Both the position numbers and the translations under genes were made by a program. Below, piece after piece: positions 283-14,189 of a stretch of DNA of 64,000 nt (positions are counted from its first letter, which is position 1; every line of letters starts with the position of its first letter). A model generated the notes under the pieces. It saw only the letters and a list, made by a program, of their open reading frames with translations. It ran no database searches and had not been told where the DNA came from. The stretch comes from Natronomonas salsuginis (GTDB taxonomy: Archaea; Halobacteriota; Halobacteria; Halobacteriales; Haloarculaceae). The stretch is taken from the NCBI RefSeq assembly GCF_005239135.1, contig NZ_QKNX01000001.1, forward strand, positions 806,001 through 870,000, given 5' to 3'.

Positions 283-1038
283 TCAGGCGACACTTCGACT
301 TTCGATGACGATTCCGGTACCCGATCTAACGGAGTAGCCGATCGAATCACCCACCTGCTCGCCCATTCCCGCGAACCGCTTGACCGAGATCTGTCGCCGA
401 ACGTCGTTGCCGACTTCGACCATCTCCAGTTCGAAGAACACGTCCGCGATCGCTCGAAACGGTCCGATCGCATCACCGTCGACGGTCGAGGGATCGACCG
501 TCAGGACGATGATCTTCCCCTCGGAGATCATGTCGCGGAAAAAGGAGATGATCTCCAGTGCGGCTTGTCGCTCCTCGTTTTTGCGGATCAACGCCTCGAA
601 CGTCGGGTCGTTTCGAAGGATCGCATCGAAGGTATCGATAACGACCACGTCGGCCATCCACATCGTCTTTGCTTCCATCAGTCTGGTGAGGAGATCCATT
701 CGATTCTCCTCGCCACCACCGGAGAGGACGCCACCGGTATCGAGGTTGGCGTGGAGAAACAACAGCCGCTCGTTGAGGATGTGGTCGACGACGTCGTACG
801 ACAGCGAGTTCATCTGGTCGAGGAAGCCCCCGATGGTCAGTTCCGTCGAGAGGACACTCACGCTCGTCTCCTCCTGGCAGAATCCGTAGGCCATCCGCTG
901 AGAGATCGCGCTCTTCCCGGCACCGTAATCACCCTCCATGAGGACGATACTTCCGCGCGGAATCCCCCCGCCGAGCTCTTTGTTCAGTCGGTCGTGATCG
1001 TCGAGTCCGAGCGATCGTATGTTTCGTGTATTTTGCAT
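283..1038 (-). CDS. arlH: Archaellum regulatory ATPase ArlH (FlaH)
   Basis: This 251-residue RecA-fold protein has a Walker A motif GDYGAGKS near residue 38 and a Walker B stretch VVVIDTFD near residue 130. The length is normal for ArlH/FlaH. In the family it binds ATP without strong turnover, forms a ring with ArlI under the membrane platform, and gates assembly and switching. It lies between arlCE upstream (9-bp gap) and arlI downstream (2-bp gap). In the haloarchaeal clusters I know, arlF and arlG stand between arlCE and arlH; here they are absent from that position. Confidence 0.93.
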   Translation of the reverse strand: MQNTRNIRSLGLDDHDRLNKELGGGIPRGSIVLMEGDYGAGKSAISQRMAYGFCQEETSVSVLSTELTIGGFLDQMNSLSYDVVDHILNERLLFLHANLDTGGVLSGGGEENRMDLLTRLMEAKTMWMADVVVIDTFDAILRNDPTFEALIRKNEERQAALEIISFFRDMISEGKIIVLTVDPSTVDGDAIGPFRAIADVFFELEMVEVGNDVRRQISVKRFAGMGEQVGDSIGYSVRSGTGIVIESRSVA

Positions 1039-1047
1039 GATGTCGCG

Positions 1048-2601
1048 TCACTCAACGTTGTCGTCGCGCCAGTCGAATCCCCCGGCGTTCCGTTCGTCGT
1101 GCTCGGAGCGATCCGGTGGACAGTGTCGCATGATTCGGGGGTCATCCGATCCGTCGATCTCACGCCCGCCGTCGGATTCGACTTCCCGGTTCGCAGGCTC
1201 TCGTCCGCTCGGATCGAACGATCGTTCGGCATACCTCCCACTTCGCCCCATACCGCTTCTCGCGTGAGGTCCCCCTCGATCGGTTCGCTCGTCGAAGGCG
1301 ACCATCCCCATGTCCGGGTTCGCGATACGGCTGATGTATCGGAGGCTCGCGTTGTGGTGTTCTACAGTCAACGAGGACTGCGGGTCGGGGGCAGCCTCGA
1401 CTCCGCCACCGAAGCCGTTCAAAAACGTCTGCAGCGCGTCGGCGGCCACAGTGTCGATCCACTCTATAGTCTCGTAGTACGCGATCGTTCGAGCCGCCCC
1501 GTCGACGCCAGCCTCTTCGACGAGGAATTCGAGCCAGTCCATGACGACGATATCGGCGGCGTACCCCGACGGCAACGCTTCGAGGTAGGGCTTCCCGCCG
1601 TCGATCGGCGAATCGGTACCGACCGTCGACGAGTCCGCTTCGTCGTCGATAGCGTCAATACCTCCCTCGTCATCGTCGGTGGCGTCGATATCTCCCTCGT
1701 CATTGTCGGTGGCGTCGATATCTCCCTCGTCATTACGGTCATCGAGATTCGGATCGGGGTCGGAGGCCGATGTATCGAAATCCGAATTATCCTCACCGAT
1801 TTCCGGATCGTCCGTTTCAGTATCGTCCAGCTCGTCAGCGTCCGTTGCCGCTTCGTCGTCCCACTCAGCCTCCCCTGAATCGTATTCCGCTTTGAGTTCC
1901 TCGAAGGACTTTCCGCCGTCTTCGCTTTCATCATCCTCGAACTCTTCGTCGAAGTCATCTTCAAAATCCCCGTCGAAGTCGTCCTCCAGTTCGTCGTCGA
2001 ACCCCCCGTCATCGTCGAAATCATCGAAGTCATCAAAGTCGTCCTCCTCCCCGTCCTCGAAATCCTCGTCGAAGAACTCGTCTGCGCTCGCATCCGCGAC
2101 CGAGCTGTCGATCTCCGATTCCTCCTCGTCGTCGCCAAACAGCCCCATCGAGCCGTCACCGATCGTTCCGCTGCCGAAGCCATCGCCCATGTCGCTCTCG
2201 TCGATGAAAGGGTTCACGCCGCGCGTCACCATCTCGTACACCTCGAGCAGCTTTCGGACGTTCTCCTCGACGTTACCGACCGACTCGCTTATCTGCTCGT
2301 TCTCGCTTTTGACCGTGTTGACCGTCGAAGATAGCGACGCGACTTCGTTTTCGAGTTCGTCGATCCGGTTGTCGACCTCCGCCGACGTCGCTGCGCCCCC
2401 ACCGTCCATGTCGTCGAATCCCATGTCGTCGCCCATCAACTCATCATCATCACCCATCAGATCGTCCCCGTCACCCATCAGATCGTCCCCGTCACCCATC
2501 AGATCGTCGCCGTCGTCGAAGAGCCCACCGTCCATGTCGTCGACGTCGCTCTCTCCGGGATCATCGTCGTCATCGCCGCCGCCGAGTAGATTATCGATCA
2601 T
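1048..2601 (-). CDS. arlCE: Archaellum motor-associated protein ArlCE (FlaC/FlaE fusion)
   Basis: This 517-residue, very acidic protein has a low-complexity Asp-rich head, then a FlaC-like helix region (about residues 75-140, ending KLLEVYEMVTRGVNPFIDES). A roughly 180-residue Asp/Glu linker follows, then a FlaE-type domain near residues 335-430 (KPYLEALPSGYAADIVVMDW through LRYISRIANPDMGMVAFDER). In haloarchaea ArlCE links the archaellum motor to the chemotaxis adaptor CheF. A further Arg-rich tail of about 80 residues after the FlaE domain is unusual and has no recognisable fold. The acidic parts are built from in-frame tandem repeats. It is first in the arlCE-arlH-arlI run. Confidence 0.9.
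   Translation of the reverse strand: MIDNLLGGGDDDDDPGESDVDDMDGGLFDDGDDLMGDGDDLMGDGDDLMGDDDELMGDDMGFDDMDGGGAATSAEVDNRIDELENEVASLSSTVNTVKSENEQISESVGNVEENVRKLLEVYEMVTRGVNPFIDESDMGDGFGSGTIGDGSMGLFGDDEEESEIDSSVADASADEFFDEDFEDGEEDDFDDFDDFDDDGGFDDELEDDFDGDFEDDFDEEFEDDESEDGGKSFEELKAEYDSGEAEWDDEAATDADELDDTETDDPEIGEDNSDFDTSASDPDPNLDDRNDEGDIDATDNDEGDIDATDDDEGGIDAIDDEADSSTVGTDSPIDGGKPYLEALPSGYAADIVVMDWLEFLVEEAGVDGAARTIAYYETIEWIDTVAADALQTFLNGFGGGVEAAPDPQSSLTVEHHNASLRYISRIANPDMGMVAFDERTDRGGPHARSGMGRSGRYAERSFDPSGREPANREVESDGGREIDGSDDPRIMRHCPPDRSEHDERNAGGFDWRDDNVE
1651..1735. repeat. 30-bp tandem repeat inside arlCE
   Basis: Two near-identical 30-bp units (1675-1704 and 1705-1734), preceded by a diverged third copy, encode the repeated peptide DEGDIDATDN/D in the acidic linker. 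The unit length is a multiple of three, so copy-number changes keep the frame. This points to expansion by slippage rather than an external insertion. Confidence 0.8.
2451..2510. repeat. 21-bp tandem repeat inside arlCE
   Basis: Three consecutive 21-bp units encode the peptide repeat GDGDDLM near the N-terminus of ArlCE, with further degenerate copies on both sides. Units are in frame and nearly identical at the nucleotide level, indicating recent duplication. Confidence 0.85.
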
Positions 2602-7152: not shown

Positions 7153-8373
7153 ATGACGGATCTACGCACAGCAGGGTTCAAAGAGCGGACCCGGGTGGCC
7201 GACGCCCGCGAGTCGCTGCTCGATGTCCCGCCGATCGATCGGACCGAGCGGCTCTCGTTGTCCGTGGCGGATGGCCGCGTGATCGCGGAGCCGGTCGACG
7301 CGCTCCGAGACGTTCCACATTATGCCCGCGCGGCGATGGACGGGTGGGCCGTCCGCGCCGAGGACACCTTCGGCGCGTCGGGTCGCTCACCCGCGATCGT
7401 TCGCCCTGACGAGACGATCGGCCCAGGCCGGGCCGTCCGCGTCCACACGGGGAGTGAACTGCCGGACGGCGCGGACGCGGTCGTGATGATCGAGGAGACC
7501 GAACGGGTCGGCGACGAGTTGGAGGTGTTCGACGCCGTCGGCGAGGGCGAAAACGTCGCCCCGGTCGGCGAGGACGTCGAGGCCGGCCAGCGGCTCTACG
7601 AACCGGGACATTTACTCCGGCCCTCGGACCTCGGCCTGCTGAAGGGGACCGGCATCGACACCGTCGAGGTCGCTGCGCTCCCGGAGGTCGCCGTCATCCC
7701 GACGGGCGAGGAGCTCGTGCAGGCCGATCCCGACCCCGGCGAGGTCGTCGAGACCAACCGGTTTACCATCTCCCGGCTCGCCGAGCGATGGGGTGCCGAC
7801 GTGACGCGGCGCGGGATCGTCACCGACGACCGCGACGCGCTCCGGGCAGCGATCCAGCGAGATCTCGTCCGCGACGTCGTCGTCACGACCGGCGGCTCCT
7901 CGGTCGGCGAGCGCGATCTCATCCCCGAGGTCGTCGAGGATCTCGGCGAGGTGTTCGTCCACGGCGTCGCCCTGAAGCCGGGGCATCCGGTTGCGTTGGG
8001 CCGCGTCGAGGGCATCACCGTCGTCATGCTCCCCGGCTATCCGGTCGCCGCCATCATCAACGCCGTCCAGTTCCTCCGGCCGCTGATCAAACACCTCGGT
8101 GGGACCGATCCGGAGCCGTTACCGACGCGGGAGGCGACGCTCGCACGGAAGATCCGCAGCGAACCGGGCGTTCGGACGTTCGTGCGCGTCACGCTCGAAG
8201 CGGGCGACGATGCGGACGGGACGCGCTTCAAAGCCACCCCGACGCGCGCCAGCGGCTCCGGCGTTCTCTCGAGCGTCGCCCTCGCGGATGGATGGGTCGT
8301 CGTCGAGGAGAGTCGGGAGGGGATTCCGGCGGGCGAGACCGTCGCAGTCGAAAACTGGGAGTACAATGGATAG
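7153..8373 (+). CDS. moeA: MoeA-type molybdopterin molybdotransferase
   Basis: The protein has 406 residues with full MoeA architecture. The N-terminal domain contains VPHYARAAMDGWAVRAEDTF, the conserved region inserting Mo into adenylylated molybdopterin. PTGEELV follows, then the MoCF-binding core VVVTTGGSSVGERDLIPEVV and VALKPGHPVALG with the LPGYPVA loop, and a C-terminal beta domain. It acts in the last step of molybdenum cofactor synthesis. Its stop overlaps the start of a second moeA by 8 bp, so the pair is one unit. Confidence 0.94.
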   Translation: MTDLRTAGFKERTRVADARESLLDVPPIDRTERLSLSVADGRVIAEPVDALRDVPHYARAAMDGWAVRAEDTFGASGRSPAIVRPDETIGPGRAVRVHTGSELPDGADAVVMIEETERVGDELEVFDAVGEGENVAPVGEDVEAGQRLYEPGHLLRPSDLGLLKGTGIDTVEVAALPEVAVIPTGEELVQADPDPGEVVETNRFTISRLAERWGADVTRRGIVTDDRDALRAAIQRDLVRDVVVTTGGSSVGERDLIPEVVEDLGEVFVHGVALKPGHPVALGRVEGITVVMLPGYPVAAIINAVQFLRPLIKHLGGTDPEPLPTREATLARKIRSEPGVRTFVRVTLEAGDDADGTRFKATPTRASGSGVLSSVALADGWVVVEESREGIPAGETVAVENWEYNG

Positions 8374-10246
8374 AAAACAGTTTCGCGACCTCGCTGAGCC
8401 CGAGGCGGCCCGGGAGGCGATCGCCTCGCTGGACCTCGAATCCGACGCCGAAACAGTCCCGCTCCGGGAAGCCCGCGGTCGCATCCTCGCCGAACGGGTT
8501 GACGCCAACCTCGACGTGCCCGGCTTCGATCGAGCGAGCGTCGACGGTTACGCGCTCAAAGCGGCCGACACGTTCGGTGCCGACGAGGCCGATCCGGCCG
8601 AATTGAGGTGTATCGGCGAGGTCCACGCGGGGGTAGAACCGACCGTCGACGTCGGTCCCGGCGAGTGCGCGGAGATCTCCACGGGGGCCGTCCTGCCGCC
8701 GGGCGCGGACGCAGTCGTGATGGTGGAACGGACGGACAGCGCCGCTGACGGCGAGACGATCCTCGTCAGAACGTCGCTCGCGCCCGGCGATCGCGTCATG
8801 TTCGCGGGGGCTGACATCGCCGCCGGCGAGCGCGCGCTCGGGCCGGGGACGACGATCACGCCGCGAGAGATCGGACTGCTGTCGGCGATCGGGGTCGAGT
8901 CGGTGCCGGTCCGCGGGCGGCCGACCGTCGGGATCGTTTCGACGGGCGACGAACTCGTCCGTCCCGGCAACCCGCTCGATAGCGCCGCCGGACAGATATA
9001 CGATGTCAACAGCTACACGACCGCGACCGCGGTCGAGGACGCCGGCGGCGAGGCGCGACTATACCCCCACGCAGGCGATGATTACGACGCGATGGAGGCG
9101 ACGCTCCGCGAGGCGGCCGCGGAGTGCGATCTCGTCCTCTCGTCGGGGTCGACCTCGGCGTCGGCGGTCGACGTCATCTACCGCGTCGTCGAGGAGACGG
9201 GCGAACTCCTCCTCCACGGGGTCGCGGTCAAGCCCGGCAAACCGATGCTCGTGGGGCGGCTCAACGGGAGCGCCTACGTCGGGCTGCCGGGGTATCCGGT
9301 CTCGGCGCTGACGATCTTTCAGGCATTCGTCGCCCCGGCGATCAGGCGGGCGGCGGGCGTCCCCGAGCCCGAGACGGCGACGGTCGAGGGGCGGATGGCC
9401 CACCGCGAGCGGTACAGCGAGGGTCGGCTCAGATACATGCCCGTCGGGCTCGTCATGGACGGCGACGGCGAGACGCTCGTCTACCCGGTCGACAAGGGCA
9501 GCGGCGCGACGACGAGCCTCGTCGAAGCCGATGGAATCGTCTCCGTCCCGCCGGACGTCGAGTACTTGGATGTCGGTGAGCGCGTCGATGTGCAACTCTT
9601 CTCGCCCGACGTTCGCCCACCGACCGTCTTCGGCGCGGGCGAGGACGACCCGGCGCTGTCGCGACTGCTCGATCGCGTCGACCGGCCGCGCTATCTCGCG
9701 ATCGGCAGCCGGCAAGGGCGCAGACGGCTCCGGGACGGCGTCACCGACGTGGCGGTCGTGACGGGCGAATCGCTTCCCGACGGAACCGAACTGGGCAGTT
9801 GGAGCCGCGAGTGGGGGCTGGTCGTTCCCGCCGGCAATCCCGACGGGATCGACGGCCTCGCAGCCCTCGTAGACGGCGACGTGCGGTTCGTCAACCGGAC
9901 GACCGACGCCGGACTGCGCTCGACGCTCGACGCGGCGCTCGACGATCTCGCGGCCGAGCGCGGCGTCGACCGACGCGAACTGACCGACGCGATCGGCGGT
10001 TACGGGATCGCTGTTCGAGCGCACGAATCGCCACCCAGAAAGGTTCTGGCGGGGGATGCGGACGCCGGGTTGGGACTGCGCGCGACTGCCGAAACGCTCG
10101 GGATGGGGTTCGTCCCCTGCGGAACCGAACGCGTCACCGTCGTCGCCGACGAGACGCGGGCGGACAAAGACGGCGTGAAGGGACTCGCCGCGGCGATCGA
10201 GAGGAACGACGCGATCTTCGAGTCGCTGGCCGGCTATCGGCGGTGA
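8366..10246 (+). CDS. moeA: MoeA with C-terminal periplasmic-binding-protein-like domain
   Basis: The protein has 626 residues. Residues 1-400 are a second MoeA (VPGFDRASVDGYALKAADTF, STGDELVRPGN, DLVLSSGSTSASAVDVIYRV, VKPGKPMLVGRLNG, GLPGYPVSALT). Residues about 410-626 form a LysR/PBP-like domain (PRYLAIGSRQGRRRLRDGVT, VAVVTGESLPDG, WGLVVPAGNPDGIDGLAALV), as in archaeal MoeA2 proteins, where it is thought to bind molybdate or tungstate. The start ATG lies inside the end of the first moeA (8-bp overlap). Substitution GSTS for GGTS/GGSS in the core loop is a small departure. Two MoeAs may divide molybdenum and tungsten insertion. Confidence 0.92.
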   Translation: MDRKQFRDLAEPEAAREAIASLDLESDAETVPLREARGRILAERVDANLDVPGFDRASVDGYALKAADTFGADEADPAELRCIGEVHAGVEPTVDVGPGECAEISTGAVLPPGADAVVMVERTDSAADGETILVRTSLAPGDRVMFAGADIAAGERALGPGTTITPREIGLLSAIGVESVPVRGRPTVGIVSTGDELVRPGNPLDSAAGQIYDVNSYTTATAVEDAGGEARLYPHAGDDYDAMEATLREAAAECDLVLSSGSTSASAVDVIYRVVEETGELLLHGVAVKPGKPMLVGRLNGSAYVGLPGYPVSALTIFQAFVAPAIRRAAGVPEPETATVEGRMAHRERYSEGRLRYMPVGLVMDGDGETLVYPVDKGSGATTSLVEADGIVSVPPDVEYLDVGERVDVQLFSPDVRPPTVFGAGEDDPALSRLLDRVDRPRYLAIGSRQGRRRLRDGVTDVAVVTGESLPDGTELGSWSREWGLVVPAGNPDGIDGLAALVDGDVRFVNRTTDAGLRSTLDAALDDLAAERGVDRRELTDAIGGYGIAVRAHESPPRKVLAGDADAGLGLRATAETLGMGFVPCGTERVTVVADETRADKDGVKGLAAAIERNDAIFESLAGYRR

Positions 10247-10264: not shown

Positions 10265-10564
10265 TCAGGGCCCCGACCCGGTCACGGCCGCGAACCGTTC
10301 GGCGTCGAACTGGATGCCGCCGGCCGTTTCGACGAGCGGATCGGATCGGAGTCGCTTGATTCGACCGAAGGGAAGCCGAACAACGGCGAATCCCGAGCGG
10401 TGATGCAACAGCAGCCGATCCGGCGCGCCGATGTCGGCGAGCAGTCGGACCATGAACACCTCGTGATCAACCTCCGGGCGACGCTTCACGAAGACGTATC
10501 CCTCGGCGTCGGACGGCGGTCCCTCGACGGAGACGGTCGCGCCGAACGCTTGGGCCATATCCAT
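10265..10564 (-). CDS. Unassigned 99-residue protein, last gene of the 10.3-13.4 kb operon
   Basis: MDMAQAFGATVSVEGPPSDA opens a small alpha/beta protein with a charged centre (VFVKRRPEVDHEVFMVRLLA) and a strand-rich second half (LLLHHRSGFAVVRLPFGRIK). No membrane segment, metal ligands or known domain were seen. The ATG used here is two bases after the stop of the preceding gene; an ORF extension upstream would overlap that gene. Function unknown. Its place as last gene of a tightly packed five-gene operon is the main clue. Confidence 0.7.
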   Translation of the reverse strand: MDMAQAFGATVSVEGPPSDAEGYVFVKRRPEVDHEVFMVRLLADIGAPDRLLLHHRSGFAVVRLPFGRIKRLRSDPLVETAGGIQFDAERFAAVTGSGP

Positions 10565-10566
10565 CG

Positions 10567-11823
10567 CTACGCCACCAGCCGCTTGGCCTGTTCGAGCCAC
10601 CCCTCGGCACGACTTTCGGACGCCTTCGTGAGCCGAGCGATCGATTCGGGATCGAGGCGGACGAACTCGCCAACGGACCGAACGTCGGCGTCCGCCAGCC
10701 GCCCAGCGTACGTCGGCCCGATCCCATGGATCGCCTCGACGGACAACTCGTTTCGCCGCGCTTCATCGATCCGTTCGGTGAGCGGTTCGATCGGTTCCGG
10801 AGACAGACCGAGCGCATCGGCGAGCTCCTCGGGTGAGCGCTCGGCGATCCCGCCGAGATCGTTGATGCCGACATCGCGAAGCCGGGCCGCGAACTCGGTT
10901 TCGGGATCGAGCCGACCGCGCTCGACGGCCCGCTTGAACGCCGACAGCAGATCGGCATCCTCGCCGACGACGGGCTCGTCACGGCGCTCGATTGGCGTGC
11001 CGTTCTCGATATCCTCGTCACCGTCCTGCGGTCGCTCCTCCGTCGTCTCGGATGCGTTCGGTTCGGGCGCTGAGCCGTCATCGGACTCGCCGCCGTCGCT
11101 GGGCTCGCCGACGACTGTCAGGTCGATCGGCGAACCGGGCGGGGCGACCGCCAGCGGCTTGGGGAACTGGTCGACGATCGTGCCGACGGCGAGGCGTGGA
11201 TCGTCGACGACCGTGATCTCGCCGACGTCGAAGCCGGCCGCCGTCAGTCGGCGAGCCGCGACGTCGTGCGACGTGCCCACGAGGTCCGGAATGTCGACGT
11301 ACCCAGGATCGTCGGATCGGTCGGACGCGTCGCTACGGATCGTGAACGACAGTTGGCTGAGGTTTTCGGTCGCGGACCGCTCGTCGAGCGACGGGAGGTA
11401 AAAGCGAACGTCGCCGTCCGACTCGGTGACGTTCGCCTTTAGCGTGACGTCGATATCGCCGATCGAGAGGCCGCGGTGACCGATGTCGGCGTCGAGCCCG
11501 TCGAACGCGGATTCGAAGCTCGAGAACAGTCGCTTCGGCTCGATCGCCGGTCGCTCGGCCCGCAATTCGTCGAGGCGATCGCGGAGTTCGGACCGCTCGG
11601 ATTCGAGCTGTGAGAGGCGGTCCGCGAGCGTGTCACGCTCGCTGCGGAGTTCGAGGACGCCGCGCTGAAGGTCCGTAATCACTCGTTCGCGCTGGATGAC
11701 GGCACGTTCGATCGCCGCCCGTTCGGCGAGGTCGAGCTTTTGTGTTTCGAGGTACGGAAGCTCCTCGACGGTGAACGCCGACTCGTCGAGGGCGAGATCG
11801 CGGGTTCGGAGATCCCACGTCAT
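10567..11823 (-). CDS. Coiled-coil / PASTA / helix-hairpin-helix protein of the unassigned operon
   Basis: This 418-residue soluble protein opens with a short region, followed by a coiled coil (28-92, heptads in RGVLELRSERDTLADRLSQL), a beta-rich segment (115-165, GLSIGDIDVTLKANV) resembling the beta region of its neighbours, and a PASTA-like repeat at 176-240 (VDIPDLVGTSHDVAARRLTA, then VGTIVDQFPKPLAVAPPGS). An acidic linker (241-290) leads to two helix-hairpin-helix-like modules (about 312-355 and 363-410, with VEAIHGIGPTYAGRLADADV). PASTA domains usually sit outside the membrane, yet there is no signal peptide or membrane helix. Start and stop overlap both neighbours closely. The combination is not one I recognise; a scaffold or DNA-linked structural role is only inference. 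Confidence 0.8.
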   Translation of the reverse strand: MTWDLRTRDLALDESAFTVEELPYLETQKLDLAERAAIERAVIQRERVITDLQRGVLELRSERDTLADRLSQLESERSELRDRLDELRAERPAIEPKRLFSSFESAFDGLDADIGHRGLSIGDIDVTLKANVTESDGDVRFYLPSLDERSATENLSQLSFTIRSDASDRSDDPGYVDIPDLVGTSHDVAARRLTAAGFDVGEITVVDDPRLAVGTIVDQFPKPLAVAPPGSPIDLTVVGEPSDGGESDDGSAPEPNASETTEERPQDGDEDIENGTPIERRDEPVVGEDADLLSAFKRAVERGRLDPETEFAARLRDVGINDLGGIAERSPEELADALGLSPEPIEPLTERIDEARRNELSVEAIHGIGPTYAGRLADADVRSVGEFVRLDPESIARLTKASESRAEGWLEQAKRLVA

Positions 11824-12239
11824 GGCTCGGTGCGTTCCGGTCCGGGGCCGGTCGGATCGATCCGTTCGGGGACGCTCGGCGCGAGCCGGAACCGAACGTC
11901 ACTCGCGATCTCCGCATTCACATCATGGGCCGACCGGGTTCGCGGCGAGAGCGGGGCCGCGTTGAGTCTCGGTCGATATCCGCGGACTGTGCCCCGGTCG
12001 TCGGTGATCTCTTCCCCCTCGATCGAGACGGTGATTCGGAGGTCCGCTTCGACTTCCGAGAACCGGAGCCACGAAGCGTCGACTGCGTAGTCGAGTTCGT
12101 CGTCGGCGAGGGCGCGTTCGAGGTCCCGCTGGACCCGCGCCGACCGTCGATCGAGCGCCTCCTGACTCTCGGCGACCGAGAAGGCGACGCTGCGGACGAG
12201 TTCGGAGAGCGGCCGCGAGAGCCACCGTTCGGTCGCCAT
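11820..12239 (-). CDS. Unassigned paralogue C of the operon (139 aa)
   Basis: The protein opens MATERWLSRPLSELVRSVAF, continues SVAESQEALDRRSARVQRDL and has a core WLRFSEVEADLRITVSIEGE. It shares with the two upstream proteins the order 'P-L-x-E helix, Ala-rich AE/DxQxxLD helix, F-S-E-A/V beta strand', but is shorter and lacks the central Tyr-Gln-Phe. The C-terminus is Pro-rich. The ATG overlaps the stop of the upstream gene (ATGA) and its own stop overlaps the next start, indicating coupled translation. No named family was recognised. Confidence 0.75.
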   Translation of the reverse strand: MATERWLSRPLSELVRSVAFSVAESQEALDRRSARVQRDLERALADDELDYAVDASWLRFSEVEADLRITVSIEGEEITDDRGTVRGYRPRLNAAPLSPRTRSAHDVNAEIASDVRFRLAPSVPERIDPTGPGPERTEP

Positions 12240-12778
12240 CAGGACTCACCGCCGTCGTCTCTCGATTCGGCCGGCTGGAGACCGATCGGGACCGGGACCG
12301 GCTGCAAAACGGCGCGTATCTGTGCATTCGCGGTCACGTTTCGGTCGAACTTTCGCTGTTCTGTGAGTTCGTAGGTCCCCGCCCGAAGGCCGAGTTCCCG
12401 GCCGCTCGATTCGGAGTCGGTCGTCTCCGCTTCGGTAACGCTGATGTCGAGTCCGATATCGATCGTCGCCTCCGAGAACTGATACCGCGTCGGGGTAAAA
12501 CCGAGATCGAGCAAAGACCTCGACTCGGCCGGTGCGGCGTCCGTGCGCACGCGTCCCTCACCGTCGATTCGGCGCGTGAGCTGTGGGACGACGTCGACTT
12601 CCGTCTCGGCGAGCGTCTCCAGAACCTCGGCGGTCGAGAGATCGAGCTTCGCCTGCGCGGTCGCGACGCTCTCGGCCAGCAGATAGAGCATATCGTCGAA
12701 CGGCAACTCTCGCTCCGGACGGACCGGTTTTCGGGACGGGACGCCGCGTGTGCGGAGATCGCGTGGTCTGATCGGCAT
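12239..12778 (-). CDS. Unassigned paralogue B of the operon (179 aa)
   Basis: After a basic Pro/Arg-rich head (MPIRPRDLRTRGVPSRKPVR) the protein carries FDDMLYLLAESVATAQAKLD, LETLAETEVDVVPQLTRRID and the hallmark SLLDLGFTPTRYQFSEATID, then beta strands ending QIRAVLQPVPVPIGLQPAES. It aligns along most of its length with the first gene of the operon. A GTG start 27 bases upstream (12805) is possible. The ATG was preferred because a purine-rich GGGAGGGGG precedes it by about 14 bases. Soluble; no cysteines; no known domain. Confidence 0.75.
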   Translation of the reverse strand: MPIRPRDLRTRGVPSRKPVRPERELPFDDMLYLLAESVATAQAKLDLSTAEVLETLAETEVDVVPQLTRRIDGEGRVRTDAAPAESRSLLDLGFTPTRYQFSEATIDIGLDISVTEAETTDSESSGRELGLRAGTYELTEQRKFDRNVTANAQIRAVLQPVPVPIGLQPAESRDDGGES

Positions 12779-12829
12779 CTCAGGCGGCGGGCCCCCTCCC
12801 GGCACGGCGAGCGTAGTGTGACATAGCGG

Positions 12830-13345
12830 TCACTCGTCCGTCGATCGGTTGTCCACGGTCTCCACTTCGGGGAAGAGATACGGCGGTGGTGGTACCGGGA
12901 CCATCGTCGTGTTGAGGCGGCTCGTCCCGTGGACCTCCTTGCCGAACTTCCGGTTGTGGCTCACGTCGACGTCGATTCGGGCGCTCCACAGACCGAATCC
13001 GACGCTCCCACCCGTGCTGACGTCGATGCTCGTCTCGGTTTCGGTCGTCGTCTTGATGTCCATCTCGACCTCGATCGTCGCCTCCGAGAACTGATAGAAC
13101 GTCGGAAACAGGCCGGCCTGCAGGAGCGAGACGTCGATCGGCTCGGCGGCGGAGTAGTCGACGCTTCCGTCGGCGCTGATGGTCCGGGTGATCGCCGGGA
13201 CGACTTCGATCTCGGTTTCGGCGAGCGTCTTCGCGACCTCGACTGAGTTCATATCCAGTTGGTGTTGGGCGTCGGCGATTCCGGCACCCAACTTCGCGAC
13301 CATCTCCGGAAGCGGTACGTCCAACAACTCCTGTCCTACTGACAT
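12830..13345 (-). CDS. Unassigned paralogue A, first gene of the operon (171 aa)
   Basis: The protein begins MSVGQELLDVPLPEMVAKLG, then GAGIADAQHQLDMNSVEVAK, EVVPAITRTISADGSVDYSA and the hallmark SLLQAGLFPTFYQFSEATIE followed by VEMDIKTTTETETSIDVSTG. Beta strands alternate with Thr/Glu-rich turns, and the C-terminus is Pro-rich (TTMVPVPPPPYLFPEVETVD). I recall bacterial proteins of unknown function with a similar 'LLELGFxPTFYQF' core but cannot name the family. The TATA box 26 bases before the ATG makes this the promoter-proximal gene of a leaderless operon of five. Confidence 0.78.
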   Translation of the reverse strand: MSVGQELLDVPLPEMVAKLGAGIADAQHQLDMNSVEVAKTLAETEIEVVPAITRTISADGSVDYSAAEPIDVSLLQAGLFPTFYQFSEATIEVEMDIKTTTETETSIDVSTGGSVGFGLWSARIDVDVSHNRKFGKEVHGTSRLNTTMVPVPPPPYLFPEVETVDNRSTDE

Positions 13346-13366
13346 TCGTGAATGTACACCAAGGTA

Positions 13367-13375
13367 CTATATATT
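13367..13375 (-). promoter_or_regulatory. TATA box of the unassigned five-gene operon
   Basis: AATATATAG on the minus strand is centred 26 bases before the first ATG of the operon. It is the only strong TATA element between this operon and the divergent gene starting at 13461. Confidence 0.65.
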
Positions 13376-13460: not shown

Positions 13461-14189
13461 ATGACGCTACTGTCGGAACTGGATCTCGATGCCGCGGACG
13501 TCGCGGCCGTCACCGAACGACGGGACGAACTGCTCGCCGCAATCAAAGATCACGCCGGGCAGATCGCCTACAACGTCGCGCGCATCGAAGGCGGTGACTA
13601 CGGCCGACGATCGTTCTCGACCGATCGGGGCGAGTGGACGGTCAAATACGAGGCGGGCGACATCGAATTCGTCCGCTACGATCCCCGCGGCGGTGGCGAG
13701 ACGTACGTCGTCTCGACGCAGTCGCCGGCCGAACCGGAGGCGCTGGCGCGCGCGCTCGAAGATTACGCGCCGTTCGTCGCGGCGTACAACGACTACGTGG
13801 CCTCGCTCGACGGCGTCCTCGACGGTGTGGACGCGGATTTCCCGAGCGTCGAATCGACCGGATCGGTCGTCGCCGAGCGCAACCGCATCGTCGATCGGAT
13901 CGAGGCGTGCTGCGATCAGATGGCTGGCGAACTCTACCGCTACGAGGGGACCGACTACGGGACCTTCGCCGCCCGCGTCGATGCGACACGGTGGGAGCTG
14001 AAGCGCGAGCGAGATACGGTGTCGTACCTCCGGGCGGGCGGCTCAGGTGGCGTCTATCTGCTCTCGCAGTACGGGCCGCCGTCGGCGACCGACGTCCGGG
14101 AGTACGCGTCGCGCTTTTCGGGATTCGTCGACGCCTACAACGACCACGTCGCCGAGTTGGAACTCGATCTGGAACGGATCGAGCTGTGA
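13461..14189 (+). CDS. Unassigned protein with two tandem homologous halves
   Basis: This 242-residue acidic soluble protein has an N-half (RDELLAAIKDHAGQIAYNVA, EGGDYGRRSFSTDRGEWTVK, ETYVVSTQSP, YAPFVAAYNDYVASLDGVL) that aligns clearly with its C-half (RNRIVDRIEACCDQMAGELY, EGTDYGTFAARVDATRWELK, GVYLLSQYGP, FSGFVDAYNDHVAELELDL). It is thus an internal duplication of a roughly 115-residue alpha/beta module, probably a pseudo-dimer. No domain name is recognised. The ATG is used in preference to a longer frame that would read through the divergent operon promoter. Confidence 0.75.
   Translation: MTLLSELDLDAADVAAVTERRDELLAAIKDHAGQIAYNVARIEGGDYGRRSFSTDRGEWTVKYEAGDIEFVRYDPRGGGETYVVSTQSPAEPEALARALEDYAPFVAAYNDYVASLDGVLDGVDADFPSVESTGSVVAERNRIVDRIEACCDQMAGELYRYEGTDYGTFAARVDATRWELKRERDTVSYLRAGGSGGVYLLSQYGPPSATDVREYASRFSGFVDAYNDHVAELELDLERIEL

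Follow-up and report, generated by a model that had tools for sequence, protein, structure and literature searches.

In a 64,000-nucleotide stretch of the Natronomonas salsuginis genome (contig NZ_QKNX01000001.1, positions 806,001 to 870,000; hereafter the window), five packed genes on the minus strand, A to E (10265–13345), were found to form a cassette whose members stay together in haloarchaea and in bacteria. With a probability of about 0.5, we read these genes as a self-contained cassette for one cytosolic hetero-oligomeric scaffold or adaptor assembly, an accessory trait that has spread horizontally. An obligate hetero-oligomer is proposed because the subunits are paralogous, the genes are inherited inseparably, the conserved tip of protein A is unfolded in the lone protein, and no catalytic family is present. 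The physical complex, the roles of D and E and the physiological task are what we infer from these data.

An earlier sequence-only reading of this DNA had described a helix of the type AE/DxQxxLD in the first three proteins and had taken them for paralogues. The motif was present in all three (IADAQHQLD in A, VATAQAKLD in B and VAESQEALD in C), which are encoded by gene A (13345–12830, 171 residues), gene B (12778–12239, 179 residues) and gene C (12239–11820, 139 residues, a shorter paralogue of A and B). Profiles were built from relatives, and pairs were compared by hhalign with reversed profiles as controls. The E-values of A–B, C–B and C–A were 1e-43, 4e-16 and 4e-10, respectively, against 0.002 or worse for the reversed controls, which bore out the paralogy; bacterial C matched haloarchaeal C with an E-value of 3e-7. 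Gene D (11823–10567, 418 residues) encodes a coiled coil, a C-related beta core, PASTA and HhH (Pfam E-values of 4e-9 for PASTA and 2e-10 for HHH_5). The core of D was common to archaea and bacteria (4e-7), and its likeness to bacterial C gave an E-value of 5e-4. The three proteins A, B and C are thus genuine paralogues, D has a related beta core, and one domain type occurs in four of the five proteins. E showed no kinship to A–D in the profile comparison. The common domain has an N-terminal helix and then a strand of the FSEATIEVxMDI type; more strands follow, the last of which ends near VPVP, as was clear in A–C. The coiled coil, PASTA and HhH that the sequence-only reading had assigned to D were all found in the window protein, but bacterial D was without PASTA and HhH when inspected by eye. 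Judged from the sequences, the conserved part of D is the A–C-related beta core plus the coiled coil, and PASTA and HhH are archaeal additions. Archaeal D shares both domains with known PASTA/HhH proteins, but as appended modules and outside a kinase or exported context.

As had been supposed earlier, no enzyme was recognised: no catalytic family was detected in any of the five proteins by Pfam and NCBIfam scans. A, B, C and E gave nothing over cut-off in Pfam, nothing of value for the five proteins was obtained from NCBIfam, and the PADLOC defence families and PHROGs returned coiled-coil, PASTA or marginal matches only. A strong match of A–C to a characterised family was found in none of these four collections, and the open-licence literature held nothing on the five-gene cassette.

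A was the most conserved subunit, with 53–89% identity to the window copy across archaea and bacteria. It is laid out as a long N-terminal helix, a beta meander and a long amphipathic beta-hairpin with the conserved tip GF.xWS...HNRKFGKEVxGTS. The AlphaFold2 model of A alone (predicted local distance difference test, pLDDT, of 69; predicted template modelling score of 0.48) exhibited a 32-residue helix, short strands, two paired 20-residue strands (83–102 and 133–151) and a tip of low confidence. The conservation of the tip was 0.77, and N131–V138 were invariant or nearly so. A tip that is conserved but of low confidence, the poor fold of lone A and the strongly alternating amphipathic strand described below are what one would expect if A were a subunit hidden inside an oligomer. 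With the A model, Foldseek found no solved fold under an E-value of 0.6, and the best VIA-align match (Z of 3.5, SRF/MADS cores) was uninformative; no solved relatives of significance were found for A, B or DUF2589.

It was also observed that the strand 84–117 of A alternates between hydrophobic and polar residues (shuffle test, p of 0.02 for 84–100 and 0.002 for 104–117, the latter significant in all sequences). This alternation, the long paired strands of the model and a Gly-aromatic tip that recurs in DUF2589 proteins would suit a membrane-inserting assembly, in which A, B and DUF2589 would build an oligomeric beta barrel or a membrane anchor out of their amphipathic hairpins. Nevertheless, a signal peptide or transmembrane segment was not apparent by eye, the hairpins are shorter in C and in the D core, and weak matches to pore proteins (E-values above 1) reflect long hairpins only, so that we regard membrane insertion as very unlikely.

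The inseparability of the five genes was apparent from their distribution. The earlier reading had suspected a wider system, not yet described, with bacterial members that have a YQF core, and had proposed conservation of the gene order as a check. A single search with A through 84,980 prokaryote genomes yielded 45 loci, which lie in haloarchaea, in one methanonatronarchaeon and in bacteria from about a dozen phyla, including Chlorobiota, Cyanobacteriota, Pseudomonadota, Chloroflexota, Thermomicrobiota, Bacillota, Gemmatimonadota, Acidobacteriota, Thermodesulfobacteriota, Kiritimatiellota and Campylobacterota. All five genes were called by profile in 30 loci, on one strand in every case (30/30) and with mostly small gaps. 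Four orders were observed, namely E-A-B-C-D in 22 loci (bacteria), A-B-C-D-E in five (archaea), A-E-B-C-D in two and C-D-E-A-B in one; in three extra C-(D)-E-A-B loci D was too divergent for its profile. The suspicion was confirmed, and so was the conservation of the gene set, the linkage being kept in haloarchaea and bacteria even where the order differs. Three of the four orders (A-B-C-D-E, E-A-B-C-D and C-D-E-A-B) are cyclic permutations, as tandem duplication with partial loss, or a circular intermediate, would give. No neighbour family recurred among 92 flanking proteins, which argues that the five genes suffice on their own.

Among haloarchaea, A or B was matched in 26 of 391 genomes, and E gave strong scores in exactly the 18 genomes with intact A (18/18) and in no other of 381. 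A/B matches were found in none of 298 genomes of other Pseudomonadota. A single-protein search of the window's own family gave nothing in 56 other genomes; a congener (G202) was found in the later scan. The five orthologues on a publicly available Sphaerotilus plasmid were each annotated as a hypothetical protein. A, B, C and E were correlated in their evolutionary distances (Spearman 0.54–0.80; Mantel test, 0 of 2000 permutations). In the tree of A, archaea stood apart from bacteria, and one archaeal clade was not rejected (approximately unbiased test, p-AU of 0.45). The bacterial phyla were mixed, for example Gemmatimonadales with Gammaproteobacteria, or Kiritimatiellota with Dehalococcoidia. 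Such mixing speaks for horizontal transfer, although errors in the binning of metagenome-assembled genomes could account for some cases. The cassette is rare and patchy in its occurrence, and an accessory trait spread horizontally is the best reading of it.

Two irregular copies were observed. In G538 (C1:979769–980773), the A match was in three pieces (residues 1–22, 21–118 and 118–171), as in a decaying copy or with assembly errors. Halorubrum sp. Hd13 (L010, 6519–7206) showed no recognisable B in the interval from A to C, which might be due to a frameshift, a loss or a wrong choice of open reading frame.

Gene E (10564–10265) had previously been noted merely as small. Its product is indeed only 99 residues long, but it was found to have a subtilisin-propeptide (Inhibitor_I9-like) fold. 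The predicted model (pLDDT of 85.6) showed the topology beta-alpha-beta-beta-alpha-beta, and the best group among its structural matches was that of subtilisin propeptides, with Z of about 7–8. The ferredoxin-like fold is common, and a structural match alone is weak evidence for kinship. Two independent sequence tests agreed with the propeptide fold: eight of nine sequence-profile matches of E in the PDB were subtilisin propeptides (E-values of 0.5–1.3), and all six non-cassette matches of the E profile in the 381 haloarchaeal genomes sat N-terminal to a Peptidase_S8 domain. Common ancestry of E and subtilisin propeptides is considered likely rather than proven. E differs from the propeptides in that it stands alone and carries conserved extras, an N-terminal FGA and a C-terminal DxxR(F/Y); the Pfam family Inhibitor_I9 (PF05922) was matched by none of 30 E members and by nothing in the window's own genome.

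These features bear on the idea of a protease-regulation module, in which E would act by itself as an inhibitor or chaperone of subtilisin, with A–D as its targets or partners. The fold of E and the restriction of its non-cassette profile matches to subtilase propeptides are in line with this idea. However, Peptidase_S8 was detected neither in the window genome (99.94% complete) nor in Rhodoferax OV413, and the genes that flank the cassette include no recurrent protease family. Moreover, the last strand of E is followed by a helix with the conserved DxxR, at the site of the inhibitory tail of propeptides, and no free tail is left. Because the own genome is without Peptidase_S8 and this helix replaces the free tail, it is unlikely that E inhibits an endogenous subtilase, and protease regulation as the purpose of the whole cassette appears highly improbable.

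For A–D, remote relatives were recognised by profile comparison. At the curated Pfam cut-off, DUF2589 (PF11655) was matched neither by A, B and C of the window nor elsewhere in its genome, and the best family members reached E-values of 0.00027 for B and 0.0056 for A. The profile–profile alignment of A with DUF2589 gave an E-value of 2.2e-8 over 161 columns (reversed control, 0.05), and a Gly-aromatic hairpin tip was present in both (GFGLWS in A, GWGWGS in DUF2589). In Archaeoglobi and two Halorubrum-family genomes (L050–L069, L103, L104), an operon of two adjacent DUF2589 paralogues followed by a helix–strand protein was found. The product of the third gene matched C (7e-6) and the D core (4e-7), so that these operons run parallel to A-B-C, but an E-like protein or a coiled-coil D was not recognised there. 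Remote kinship of A–D to DUF2589, through A and B, is supported by these profiles. In the open-licence literature, DUF2589 appeared in one paper, as a note on expression (PMC3949148), and Trypco2 in two.

Trypco2 (PF19631) was defined by co-occurrence with trypsin-like peptidases in ternary conflict systems (PMC7159879). Window A scored 16.3 bits against a curated cut-off of 24.2 bits, and no Trypco2 match was found in its genome. Members of the A and C families matched PF19631 weakly. Full-length support came only from bacterial C, which in comparison with a five-sequence Trypco2 set gave E-values of 7e-5 and 5e-4 over the core (reversed control, 0.1). Both have a helix and then antiparallel strands ending in an L-x-P motif; Trypco2 is a single domain of ∼78 residues beside trypsin-like peptidases, whereas the cassette is four-fold paralogous and without a peptidase. 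The kinship to Trypco2, through C, is regarded as provisional.

If real, it would suit a conflict or defence module, with the Trypco2-like proteins as sensors or adaptors, as proposed in VMAP ternary systems, and without a linked protease effector. The alignment of bacterial C over the whole Trypco2 core, the conflict-system setting in which that family was defined, the patchy distribution and the cross-phylum transfer are compatible with such a module. On the other hand, the cassette is without a nuclease, protease, TIR or other effector, and neither trypsin-like peptidases, VMAP/MoxR partners nor defence genes recur in its flanks. PADLOC yielded no better than the marginal matches mentioned above, and A is unusually conserved, unlike a fast-evolving arms-race component. 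We therefore consider a conflict module unlikely.

In the preferred reading as a scaffold or adaptor, the paralogous proteins A, B and C and the core of D, each with an N-terminal helix and antiparallel strands ending near an L/V-x-P-V-P motif, would be the subunits, held together most probably by their helices and long amphipathic hairpins. The hairpin tip of A would become ordered only inside the complex. The coiled coil of D may bridge or tether subunits, the PASTA and HhH domains of archaeal D would supply an added binding function, and E might cap or regulate the assembly by binding exposed beta edges, not by protease inhibition. The whole would work as a scaffold or adaptor, not as an enzyme. 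Several points weigh against this interpretation: gene linkage also suits a pathway without a stable complex, the mirror-tree correlations partly reflect shared ancestry, the confidence of the A model is moderate only, and seven haloarchaea were found with a reduced variant in which one A/B-like protein stands in place of two, so that a strict A-plus-B stoichiometry is not universal. More tentatively, and at somewhat less than even odds, the cassette may represent an undescribed class of self-assembling machine in archaea and bacteria, in which one helix-plus-hairpin fold gave rise by duplication to four subunits, under the control of a captured protease-propeptide domain; the DUF2589 operons would then be a sister form and Trypco2 a minimal relative within one superfamily of assembly modules.

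Three of the reduced variants were read (L096, 4283–6637; L097, 6048–8536; L098, 4232–6453; B-like match only). In each, one A/B-like protein, its tip rich in glycine, was followed by C and D. Their D had HhH, with two PASTA-like repeats seen by eye in L096 and L097, and an E-like gene was found in L097 and was weak in L098.

In the window, the single TATA box that had been placed before the five genes could be read directly. It is AATATATAG (13368–13375, minus strand), with its centre 27 bases 5′ of the ATG of gene A, and from this spacing a leaderless haloarchaeal transcript is likely for the cassette. Upstream of A in relatives, the TATA element was not kept base by base, and A/T-rich stretches were usual. 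The close packing was likewise confirmed, with a gap of 51 bp between A and B, a TGATG overlap of B and C, an ATGA overlap of C and D, and a gap of 2 bp between D and E. The start of B was taken as the ATG common to Natronomonas relatives; a GTG start at 12805, which would lengthen the frame, is less likely.

Several neighbours were noted. Convergent with gene E lie two successive moeA-type genes (7153–10246), the second fused to a PBP-like domain. The divergent neighbour of A (13462–14189, plus strand) had no match in Pfam and, when inspected by eye, two halves that resemble each other; it does not accompany the cassette elsewhere. Further away, a KaiC-family ATPase (FlaH-like by eye) and a FlaC/Arch_fla_DE fusion (283–2601, minus strand) are part of an archaellum cluster.

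Three other candidates were rejected. A phage or virus origin found no match in 50,697 phage records or in 2.9 million viral contigs, the latter scanned with two peptide patterns. A link to gas vesicles, prompted by the carriers Chlorobium, Pseudanabaena and Halorubrum, was dismissed, as 14 of 16 cassette genomes were without gvpA-type genes (PF00741). A link to phototrophy was dropped by inspection, the carriers including Clostridia, Desulfonatronospira and Sulfurimonadaceae.

Five proteins that are hypothetical in the databases thus make up an inseparable unit kept in distant lineages of two domains of life, and this, together with the 53–89% identity of A across the domains, argues for a definite shared function. 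No described system in the searched sources matches it; as present knowledge of the cassette is of its anatomy and evolution, not of its function, it might yet turn out to be a familiar system in another form. The link to DUF2589 and Trypco2 ties together three unexplained groups, so that one structure or phenotype would inform all of them, and since carriers such as Halorubrum, Natronomonas, Rhodoferax and Sphaerotilus are culturable, the cassette is directly testable.

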